Source: Streptomyces durmitorensis (lineage in GTDB: Bacteria > Actinomycetota > Actinomycetes > Streptomycetales > Streptomycetaceae). Taken from it: a DNA stretch of 64,000 nt. The notes below the pieces were generated by a model. The model was not told the origin of the DNA. It worked only from the letters and a program-made list of their open reading frames with translations, and made no database searches. The translations under genes were made by a program, and so were the position numbers. Shown here piece after piece: positions 51,888 to 53,969 of the stretch. Position 1 is the first letter of the stretch. Every line of letters begins with the position of its first letter. Location of the stretch: NCBI RefSeq assembly GCF_023498005.1, contig NZ_CP097289.1:5270001-5334000 (forward strand), written 5' to 3'.

Positions 51888-52066
51888 CTGGCACCCCCTG
51901 CAGGCCGTGTCCTCATGAGCTGCATGTTCTGCGAGTTCCGCATGTACCGCACGTCAGATCATTCAACTCGAACGTGACGCAGCCCACAGGCACTTCCCAG
52001 AAGTTCGACGAAATCGTTGCCCCCAAAGCCCCGAGAAGCCCTCGGGCAAAGCCCTCAGAAAATCGC

Positions 52067-52096
52067 TTGTGCGACGGACAGGGCCGTTCCTAGGGT
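52067..52096 (+). promoter_or_regulatory. SigHrdB-like promoter for a small transcript
   Basis: TTGTGC (52067-52072) and TAGGGT (52091-52096) are separated by 18 bases. TAGGGT fits the Streptomyces -10 consensus TAGRRT. Transcription would start near 52103 and run rightwards into the 12-codon ORF and structured region. Confidence 0.6.
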
Positions 52097-52102
52097 GGCA
52101 CG

Positions 52103-52330
52103 TACACACGAAGGGAGGTGGTTCGGCAGATGTATGGAAACCGGACGCGTGAGGTGACTGCGGGCTAGTGGCCCGTCGTCGCAACTCGATTTCGGCGCCG
52201 GACCAGCACGTGTGATGTGCGTGCAACCGGCCCAATCCCAAGCAGTCACCCGACCCGCGAGCCGCCGGTGAGTCCGGCCGGCTTCCCGCCGTCTCGTACG
52301 GCGGGAACCACGGCTCGCGGGTCGTCTGCG
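52103..52330 (+). ncRNA. Candidate small structured RNA
   Basis: Paired elements are: GGTGACTGC (52153-52161) with GCAGTCACC (52242-52250); CGGGC (52161-52165) with GCCCG (52171-52175); GCCGG (52197-52201) with CCGGC (52227-52231), enclosing GCAC/GTGC; a 14-bp perfect stem of CGACCCGCGAGCCG (52251-52264) with CGGCTCGCGGGTCG (52311-52324); and inside it TTCCCGCCGT (52283-52292) with ACGGCGGGAA (52298-52307). The last two form a terminator-like domain, which may also end the ABC-2 operon on the other strand. No gene follows on the plus strand, so a cis-riboswitch is unlikely. The rest of the 51888-52361 gap holds the PAS promoter region. Confidence 0.5.
52130..52168 (+). CDS. 12-codon small ORF with a strong Shine-Dalgarno
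   Basis: ATG 52130 opens MYGNRTREVTAG and ends at TAG 52166-52168. AAGGGAGGTG lies 9 bases upstream, closer to the anti-SD consensus than most gene starts in this window. The stop codon lies within the loop of a CGGGC/GCCCG hairpin (52161-52175). It may be a leader peptide or a real micro-protein. Confidence 0.45.
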   Translation: MYGNRTREVTAG

Positions 52331-52361: not shown

Positions 52362-53969
52362 TCAGCCCCTGCTGACCGCCGTCAGGATCTCCGGAAGCCG
52401 CCGCGCCACCCTCGGCGCCGCCAGCCGCAGACCGAAGTACGTGATCACCGCTCCGTAGGCACCGCCCAGCGGCAGCAGCACCCAGGACCAGTCGCTCGCG
52501 CCCGAGACGTGCAGCCAGATGGTGAAGGCGAGCACCGGGGCGCAGAGCAGGGCCGCCGCGACCATCCCGCCGAAGATCGAGATCCAGGCCAGGCCCGCCT
52601 GCCCGGGGGCCACGTTCTTGTAGCCCTCCTGCGGGATCGAGTAGGGGAAGCGGGCCGATGACCAGGCGCCCGTCGCCAGCATCGCGCCGAGCAGGGCGAA
52701 GGAGAGGCCGAGGCCCTCCGGCAGGCCCTTCCAGTCGCCGAGCACCGATGCCGTGATGACCGTCACCAGCGTCGCGTACGGGAGGGTGATGGCGAGGAGT
52801 GCCAGGGCGCGGGCGCGGAGTTCGATGTACGCGTCGTACGTCGACGAGATCGTCATCGCGACCATCCAGAACGCCGAGGTGTCCTGGCCGAACTGGTTGT
52901 ACATCAGGACGCCGAGCATCCCGGCCGCGAAGCACGCGAAGTAGATCGAGCCCGTGCCCTGGAGGGCGTTGAAGAGCGGCACGATCAGGCCGATGGCCAG
53001 GGACGTCACCCAGGCCGCCTTCGTCTTCGGGTCACGCCACACATAGCGCAGGCTGCGTTCCATGACCGTGCCCGTGCGTCCGCCGGGAAGGAGTTTGCCC
53101 AGGCCGCGCGCCGAGCGGGCCTTGGTGGGCTCCGCCGCCGCGAGCGTCGAGCCGTCGGGGGTCGTCATCAGGTGGGTGAGGCTGCGCTGCCAGAGGGCCA
53201 GGAGCGCGGCGAGGGCGGCTGCGCTCAGGGCGAGTTGGGCGACCCCGGTGGCGTACGCGCCCTCGCTGACCGAGTCGACGGCGCCGATGGCCGACGCGGG
53301 CGGGATCCAGCGGACGACCTCCGCCGCCGGGTCGAGCTGCGAGAGCCCCGACGAACCGAGCCGCTGCGCCCCGAAGTTGACGACCTGCGCGCCGACCGCG
53401 ATGACCAGGCCGCTCAGAACGGCCAGATCACGTCCCTTGCGGCTGGTCAGGAGGCGGATGTTGGCGGCGGCGACGGTCCGCGCGAGGGCCACGCAGACGA
53501 GCAGGGTCAGCGCGATGGCCAGGACCCCGGTGACGGCCGCCGCCGCACCGTGCGCGAGGGAGATCACGGCGCCGAGCGCGAGGCAGAGGGTGAAGAGCGG
53601 CCCGATGCCCACCAGGGACGCCACGAGGAGCGCGCGCACCAGTGGCCGGGGGCGCAGCGGCAGCATCACCAGGCGGGTGGGGTCGAGGGTCTCGTCGCCG
53701 CCGGCGAAGAACAGCGGCATCACTGCCCAGCCGAGCGCGAGCACGGCGGTGAGCAGGACGGAGACGGTGGCGGCGTGTTCGTTGCCGCGCAGGGCGATCA
53801 GGCCGAGGAGCTGGAGGGCGGCGACGAGGAGCGCGGCGGCGACGGAGGCGATGTAGGCGGCGCGGCGTCCGGTCGACTGGTGCAGGCCGTTGCGCAGGAG
53901 CGAGAGCTTCAGGCGTACGAAGACGGGGGTGATCGAGGGGGAAGGGGCCGGGGAAGGGGCCGTGGTCAT
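52362..53969 (-). CDS. ABC-2 type membrane permease
   Basis: The 535-residue protein has about twelve hydrophobic segments in two halves, separated by a basic cytoplasmic region (KARSARGLGKLLPGGRTGTVMERSLRYVWRDPKTK). PLFFAGGDETLDPTRLVMLPLRPRPLVRALL in the first half is the recurrent motif of this large exporter class. It is coupled by a 4-base overlap to the ATPase gene. A substrate cannot be named. Confidence 0.83.
   Translation of the reverse strand: MTTAPSPAPSPSITPVFVRLKLSLLRNGLHQSTGRRAAYIASVAAALLVAALQLLGLIALRGNEHAATVSVLLTAVLALGWAVMPLFFAGGDETLDPTRLVMLPLRPRPLVRALLVASLVGIGPLFTLCLALGAVISLAHGAAAAVTGVLAIALTLLVCVALARTVAAANIRLLTSRKGRDLAVLSGLVIAVGAQVVNFGAQRLGSSGLSQLDPAAEVVRWIPPASAIGAVDSVSEGAYATGVAQLALSAAALAALLALWQRSLTHLMTTPDGSTLAAAEPTKARSARGLGKLLPGGRTGTVMERSLRYVWRDPKTKAAWVTSLAIGLIVPLFNALQGTGSIYFACFAAGMLGVLMYNQFGQDTSAFWMVAMTISSTYDAYIELRARALALLAITLPYATLVTVITASVLGDWKGLPEGLGLSFALLGAMLATGAWSSARFPYSIPQEGYKNVAPGQAGLAWISIFGGMVAAALLCAPVLAFTIWLHVSGASDWSWVLLPLGGAYGAVITYFGLRLAAPRVARRLPEILTAVSRG

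Follow-up and report, generated by a model that had tools for sequence, protein, structure and literature searches.

The window, i.e. the whole 64-kb stretch of DNA analysed here, contains at 52104–52330 a known RNA that is catalogued as an sRNA in Rfam (RF02471, Ms_IGR-5). The RNA family is the known part; the new part, as far as its homologues can tell, would be a conserved 12-codon open reading frame (ORF) within the RNA and the use of the ORF codons as strands of the core helices. A translation-gated RNA switch is the best reading of this arrangement, and we consider it probable. The features concerned are listed in Table 1.

Table 1. Features of the RF02471 locus in the window
Feature	Position	Strand	Evidence
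RNA, member of Rfam RF02471 (Ms_IGR-5)	52104..52330	+	cmscan, full model 1-184
Promoter: TTGTGC 52067-52072, 18-nt spacer, TAGGGT 52091-52096	52067..52096	+	sequence, homologues
Extended Shine-Dalgarno (SD) sequence, pairs without a break with 15 nt of the 16S 3' tail, G-U included	52110..52124	+	sequence pairing
12-codon ORF, ATG to TAG (MYGNRTREVTAG)	52130..52168	+	stop kept in 153/154, canonical start in 139/154
P1, 5' strand, pairs with 52149-52151	52105..52107	+	strongest covarying pair, 52106-52150
P1, 3' strand, spanning codon 7 (two bases) and codon 8 (first base)	52149..52151	+	covariation
Pseudoknot, 5' strand GGAC (codons 5-6), pairs with 52272-52275	52143..52146	+	variant counts
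Pseudoknot, 3' strand GUCC, apical loop of P4	52272..52275	+	columns 97-100% conserved
P2, 5' strand, codons 8-11	52153..52161	+	9 bp with 52242-52250
P2, 3' strand GCAGUCACC, directly 5' of the terminator-like stem	52242..52250	+	covariation
Conserved unpaired AAUCCC stretch beside P2	52234..52239	+	loose motif RRWHCH in 130/150 rows
P3, 5' arm of the 14-bp terminator-like stem	52251..52264	+	pairs with 52311-52324
P3, 3' arm	52311..52324	+	pairs with 52251-52264
P4 hairpin, 52265-52268 with 52278-52281, loop makes the pseudoknot	52265..52281	+	covariation

Family membership, promoter and surroundings

A new small-RNA gene on the plus strand, possibly encoding a micro-protein, had been proposed for 52061–52330 in a sequence-only reading of this DNA, and the features described there are all to be found in the sequence. 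The match of 52104–52330 to RF02471 by cmscan scored 89.9 bits (gathering threshold, 45; E 1.2e-18), and this was the sole family at threshold within the 64-kb window in an Rfam scan. The candidate is therefore a known RNA: the gene was correctly placed on the plus strand, and its homologues are transcribed, but it is not novel. We infer that transcription starts at about 52104, and 52061–52103 is therefore probably promoter, not RNA, so that the proposed segment stands as RNA from 52104 onwards.

Among actinobacteria this sRNA is widespread, with matches in 54 of 61 relatives, 197 of 296 genomes of the class, and 56 of a phylum-wide sample of 296 (6 of 21 in a smaller draw); the 14 control genomes searched gave no match. 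Nearly all genomes carry one copy, and two matches were seen in G047 and G122. The founding paper of the family is said to be that of Li et al. in 2013. In published work, the Streptomyces lividans homologue SLIV_16488 is validated by RNA-seq ('yes' in Table 2; PMC8079986), the S. avermitilis homologue is recorded as an sRNA unit (PMC8780764), ncMSMEG15794c of Mycobacterium smegmatis overlaps IGR-5 (PMC10454040), and S. coelicolor scr4389 is among the sRNAs with confirmed expression (PMC8388888). The latter may be the same gene, judging by map position only. The available literature passages on the family give no function for the RNA, and the one paper found for the Rv0812–Rv0813c region concerns another ORF.

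The promoter-like TTGTGC-N18-TAGGGT that had been pointed out upstream of the RNA recurs in its homologues. At a constant distance upstream of the RNA start, 114 of 154 loci carry TTG-N16–19-TAnnnT, compared with a mean of 0.32 of 154 in 100 rounds with shuffled upstream letters; a further 27 loci have the -10 hexamer alone and 13 have neither. Scans for a consensus promoter (TTGACA/TATAAT type) and for a terminator found nothing.

Downstream, the next gene (52362–53969) is on the minus strand and convergent with the RNA, in agreement with the earlier remark that no plus-strand gene follows. Plus-strand ORFs listed beyond it were taken as spurious, being opposite minus-strand ORFs. The gene itself, named an ABC-2 permease in the sequence-only reading, has no Pfam-A match at E 0.001. 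Among the homologous loci, the neighbours differ by lineage, i.e. PAS proteins, class IV aminotransferases, GCV_T-type folate-binding proteins, and Fur upstream, and heme-binding beta-barrels, pyridoxamine-phosphate oxidases, citrate synthase, and NlpC/P60 downstream (cluster names from one representative per cluster and one Pfam scan). With a crude gene caller, 68 of 119 loci have their nearest downstream gene on the opposite strand, 49 have it on the same strand, and 2 have none. The RNA looks like a gene of its own and not a leader.

The Shine-Dalgarno site and the twelve-codon frame

The SD had been ranked among the best in the window. Its duplex with the 16S tail has a predicted energy of -26.1 kcal/mol, and none of 1700 ATG/GTG sites sampled in the window matches it (best, -19.4 kcal/mol). 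The median over copies is -29.5 kcal/mol, compared with -6.6 to -15.0 kcal/mol for four short SD cores. With G-U pairs counted, 122 of 150 copies can pair with 16 consecutive nt of the tail; the paired stretch is 15 nt long in 23 copies, 14 in 1, and 12 in 4. The tail sequence used was found six times in the genome of the window, presumably in its rRNA operons, and was assumed to apply to the other genomes. Ordinary SD sites are much shorter. Five sites in this 9.86-Mb genome, that of the RNA included, pair with the tail over 15 nt, besides the six presumed rRNA copies; the other four sites of at least 15 pairs lie at G000:C1:104041-104055, 3275355-3275369, 3436895-3436909, and 3995683-3995697.

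The 12-codon ORF, which the sequence-only reading had also identified, consists of ATG TAT GGA AAC CGG ACG CGT GAG GTG ACT GCG GGC TAG. It was compared over 154 loci, window copy included (119 gathered first and 35 later). The motif GAGGTG downstream of the SD served as the anchor and is present in all 154 loci; its invariance is therefore not counted as a result. For the first 119, orientation was set by a pattern of SD, GAGGTG, and a nearby stop triplet in any frame, which none of the 119 failed, whereas for the later 35 the stop condition was dropped and short hand-set anchors were used for L149, L150, and L151.

A stop lies five codons after GAG in 153 of the 154 loci (TAG in 129, TGA in 15, and TAA in 9), the exception being L150. 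An in-frame ATG, TTG, or GTG was identified in 140 loci, 139 of which are open to the conserved stop; this start lies seven codons before GAG in 125 loci, eight in 5, nine in 9, and six in L150, where an in-frame stop follows. Of the 14 copies lacking all three triplets, 13 have an in-frame CTG, ATT, or ATC (L004, L045, L134, L135, L139, L141, L142, L145, L147, L148, L151, L152, and L153) and L132 has none. Homologous ORFs comprise 10–15 codons, or 17 with a near-cognate start. It is as if weak initiation were tolerated or wanted in the near-cognate copies, and their presence in some lineages suggests that the initiation rate is tuned, not the product. The SD-to-start spacing varies from 5 to 9 nt in single-nucleotide steps, and over the 139 open loci the distance from start to GAG is 21, 24, or 27 nt; insertions within the frame are therefore whole codons. 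Between the SD and GAG+15, the 154 loci contain four in-frame stops (three 5' of the start and one in L150), compared with 141 and 229 in the other frames, some of which the conserved CGTGAGG imposes. On the RNA tree, from which L150 was left out as it was from the 153-row MAFFT alignment, a minimum of 14 changes of stop type and 27 of start type is required, with kinship only partly allowed for.

The frame was also followed into more distant copies. A genome-contig scan with a pattern that specifies neither start nor stop found at least 120 stretches; among the matches listed, a canonical start and a stop occupy the expected place in 120 of 120, and the sources (80 names) include Streptomyces, Mycobacterium, Nocardia, Micromonospora, Cellulomonas, Nocardioides, and others. 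A DNA pattern that likewise left start and stop unspecified matched 75 of 296 phylum genomes. A deep set of 20 loci was composed of 15 pattern sites in genomes without a listed RF02471 match and 5 weak RF02471 matches. The 15 sites were picked by eye for likeness between SD and GAGGTG, with about 17 chance-like matches set aside; the start codon within that stretch may have coloured the choice, and the stop codon is outside it. The frame is kept in 18 of the 20 loci (14 canonical and 4 near-cognate starts). L275–L289 are the deep actinobacterial copies obtained with the DNA pattern, and the RF02471 scan of the same genomes used stricter filters. In L275, L276, and L150, the spacing to GAGGTG is shifted, and the SD, start, and stop are kept in another frame, giving ORFs of 10, 10, and 12 codons, respectively, of which that of L150 would start with ATT. 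That the ORF moved along with its start and stop is not accounted for by structure alone. Comparison across the phylum shows selection on the start, frame, and stop of this ORF and is strong comparative evidence for its putative translation. In PMC4974804, ribosome reads are reported over MS_IGR-5 in M. abscessus and M. smegmatis, with the authors' caution that such reads on sRNAs need not mean translation; the supplementary list of that paper holds 126 new ORFs, among which the RF02471 ORF might be. We found no report of the conserved ORF, or of its weaving into core helices, in the available main-text passages of open-licence papers.

The encoded peptide is a different matter. Among 108 distinct 12-codon ORFs, drawn from 126 loci with NTG at the start place, codons 2–4 are represented by 20, 25, and 26 different codons, respectively. 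In ORFs only one or two letters apart, codons 2–4 show 32 nonsynonymous and 6 synonymous changes, which fall on all three codon positions, and codons 5–12 show 18 and 7; no amino-acid constraint was found in codons 2–4 by this comparison. Codon 7 occurs as CGT, TGT, GAA, TAC, TCG, GGT, and more, encoding R, C, G, E, Y, S, L, or P, and the 5' end of the RNA covaries with it (CACG/CGUG, CUUC/GAAG, CGUA/UACG, CCGA/UCGG, and CCAG/CUGG). In the aligned copies, codon 7 follows base pairing with the RNA 5' end rather than amino-acid identity. Because codons 2–4 are without amino-acid constraint, translation seems to matter more than the peptide, which is probably not the point of the ORF; in this it resembles the regulatory ORFs of leaders. 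The earlier suggestion of a micro-protein-encoding RNA is supported as to a conserved frame and not supported as to a conserved peptide.

Helices formed by the frame

The folding energy of 52061–52330 is -147.3 kcal/mol, which none of 200 dinucleotide shuffles equalled (z -5.1); the minus strand also folds well (z -3.8). Both stems singled out in the sequence-only reading, the 9-bp long-range stem (P2) and the 14-bp stem (P3), were recovered, and the stems covary among homologues. In an alignment of 150 rows (L150, L033, L141, and L148 were left out, the last three as close relatives of retained rows), the whole comparative structure has 34 pairs and 4997 cells, 89.6% of which are paired, and 27 pairs have double-sided changes. 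Double-sided cells number 501, compared with 151.9 in shuffles, and 0 of 500 shuffles were as high, with kinship only partly allowed for. When the partners are slid by 1–3 columns, pairing falls to 36–39%. In P2, 93.6% of cells are paired and five of nine pairs have changed on both sides; in P4, the corresponding values are 85.0% and four of four, and for P3, 12 of 14 pairs were entered in the covariation count.

P1 joins the 5' end of the RNA to codons 7–8 and closes a loop containing the SD and the start codon. Its pair 52106-52150 was at the top of an unbiased mutual-information scan of the 153-row alignment (paired in 153 of 153 rows, with five pair types, and in 150 of 150 in the 150-row alignment), and the ranks below it were taken up by P2, P3, P1, and pseudoknot pairs. 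The P1 of the window itself has 3 pairs only, 52108-52148 being A-C, and its fifth pseudoknot pair is G-A. The pseudoknot strands read GGAC/GUCC in 133 of 150 rows, GGAU/AUCC in 5, GGAU/GUCC in 2, and GGAC/GUUC, CGAC/GUCG, and CGAU/GUCG in 1 each; in 7 rows, all from one lineage, these columns are shifted by one base and were counted as unpaired. GGAU/AUCC, CGAC/GUCG, and CGAU/GUCG are compensatory, and GGAU/GUCC and GGAC/GUUC are kept by G-U. Counts of G-U versus A-C are 119/9 in P2, 132/88 in P3, 30/21 in P4, 17/15 in the pseudoknot, and 9/17 in P1. The excess in P2 speaks for the plus strand, and the stems therefore do not covary only as a minus-strand terminator; P1 and the pseudoknot are unclear in this respect.

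The Rfam model, which lists the family as an sRNA gene, draws the SD paired with codons 10–11, and its consensus is without P1, P2, and the pseudoknot found here. That first helix (52117–52122/52157–52162), with 86.6% of its cells paired, had no double-sided changes in 150 sequences and so did no better than shuffles. This lack of covariation calls into question the Rfam drawing, not the membership, which is based on score, and the secondary structure of RF02471 probably needs redrawing. A start-codon hairpin, in which the SD flank pairs with GGAC, has 54 double-sided cells compared with 24.7 in shuffles, and its double-change pairs and pair types do not exceed those of shuffles (449 and 131 of 500 shuffles reached them, respectively). 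Since 116 of 150 sequences could form either this hairpin or the pseudoknot, it is a possible third state with modest support. The minimum-energy fold of the window RNA alone differs from the comparative structure (-119.2 versus -112.7 kcal/mol, pseudoknot not counted). For the AAUCC-like stretch beside P2, no pairing partner was found in the 150-row alignment; it could bind a protein, a ligand, or another RNA.

A ribosome-responsive RNA and its alternatives

In the proposed switch, a free-standing RF02471 gene with its own promoter and terminator-like stem has an SD able to pair with nearly the whole 16S tail, leading into a 12-codon ORF whose codons, as comparison shows, supply the 5' strands of the pseudoknot (codons 5–6) and P2 (codons 8–11) and a strand of P1 (codons 7–8). 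The usual footprint of a ribosome at the ATG would reach to about codon 5–6, and at the stop it covers about codons 8–12. To judge from these footprints, a ribosome starting at the ATG would have to break the pseudoknot and one at the stop would have to break P2. Since the footprints overlap both elements, translation and the compact fold would exclude each other, and the RNA would therefore have two states, ribosome-occupied and folded. On loss of the pseudoknot, the start-codon hairpin would hide the SD, and the length class of the ORF would fit one ribosome. The ribosome reads over the mycobacterial homologues are in agreement, subject to their authors' caution given above. Once occupied, the RNA might release its 3' strand (GCCCAAUCCCAAGCAGUCACC) and its GUCC loop, which could then target a protein or other RNAs in trans. 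This is the least certain step; that the freed arm so acts is a guess, more apt to be wrong than right. In this way, the RNA would report ribosome activity without any gene downstream. Several points weigh against the switch: so strong an SD could slow initiation, 14 of 154 copies have none of the three canonical starts and L132 has no start-like codon, the minimum-energy fold is 6.5 kcal/mol more stable than the comparative one, the G-U excess is unclear in P1 and the pseudoknot, P1 of the window is short, and the transcript, footprints, and fold of this strain are predictions from comparison.

Other explanations account for parts of the data. A purely non-coding sRNA, with the frame as an accident of conserved structure, would agree with the Rfam catalogue entry and with the constraint that pairing imposes on codons 5–11 anyway. 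However, the start lies outside the covarying helices and switches among ATG, TTG, and GTG; in 153 of 154 copies the stop alternates among the three stop codons and never becomes TGG; only whole codons are inserted within the frame, yet the SD-to-start spacing is not so restricted; and in L150, L275, and L276 the ORF has moved together with its start and stop. Comparison largely refutes this explanation, which appears very improbable. A dual-function RNA with a functional 12-residue peptide acting in trans would fit the phylum-wide conservation of the ORF and the few amino acids used at codons 5–6 and 10–12, but it is improbable in view of the freedom of codons 2–4 at the amino-acid level, the dictation of residue 7 by the 5' pairing partner, and an ORF length of 10–17 codons; codons 8–9 are invariant, but they are the anchor and lie within P2.

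A ribosome-binding decoy, whose main effect would be to retain or count 30S subunits by pairing along the full 16S 3' tail, with the short ORF for their release, draws on the SD data: 15 or 16 contiguous pairs in nearly all copies (tail checked in the genome of the window), a duplex far stronger than short SD cores, and only five such sites in the genome besides the presumed rRNA copies. Genomes usually carry a single copy, titration would require very high abundance, and a decoy leaves the ORF codons in the core helices unexplained; we consider it unlikely. The anatomy of SD, mini-ORF, alternative helices, and terminator-like stem is also that of an attenuator leader for a same-strand gene further downstream. 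Against this stand the convergent neighbour in the window, the mixed downstream strand (68 opposite and 49 same of 119 loci, none in 2, with the crude caller), and the widely differing downstream families, and no regulatory codon run was found in the mini-ORF, codons 2–4 of which are as varied in the 108 ORFs as described above, so that a leader is hardly plausible. Finally, a terminator of the convergent minus-strand gene would fit P3, a strong palindrome that could serve both strands, and the good folding of the minus strand; the G-U excess of P2 on the plus strand (119 versus 9 A-C) and the location of promoter, SD, and ORF on that strand make this barely credible.

If the ORF codons are the core helices, the question moves from mRNA targets to how the RNA reads the ribosome, and the corrected secondary structure would provide a base for target prediction or a family model. 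A bolder version, in which ribosome sensing is the sole job of a phylum-wide, single-copy RNA class that captures the 30S subunit via the entire 16S tail and exposes a trans-acting 3' arm upon translation of an amino-acid-indifferent mini-ORF, is tentative and in our view rather doubtful; such an RNA would be a leader-like sensor of translation that is tied to no gene.

Parts of this arrangement are found in known systems. In the S4 and S15 operon leaders of E. coli, the ribosome binds in competition with a pseudoknot at the initiation site, but these leaders regulate a downstream ribosomal-protein gene, whereas the RF02471 RNA has no such gene. Dual-function sRNAs, of which SgrS is one, make a small protein for its own sake, whereas the RF02471 peptide is partly unconserved and its ORF would form the structural core. 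VcdRP, described as a dual-function sRNA in PMC8672173, has an ORF, as here. In PMC7298713, rnTrpL of Sinorhizobium meliloti is described as an attenuator sRNA with a leader-peptide ORF. Like rnTrpL, the RF02471 RNA is short and has an SD, a mini-ORF, competing helices, and a terminator-like stem. In RNAs of the rnTrpL type, these elements, with a mini-ORF of about a dozen codons and a terminator, are combined in a short molecule that can act away from its operon. Unlike rnTrpL, the RF02471 RNA has no biosynthetic operon behind it and no regulatory codon run, and it has its own promoter and a pseudoknot between the ORF and the loop of the terminator hairpin.
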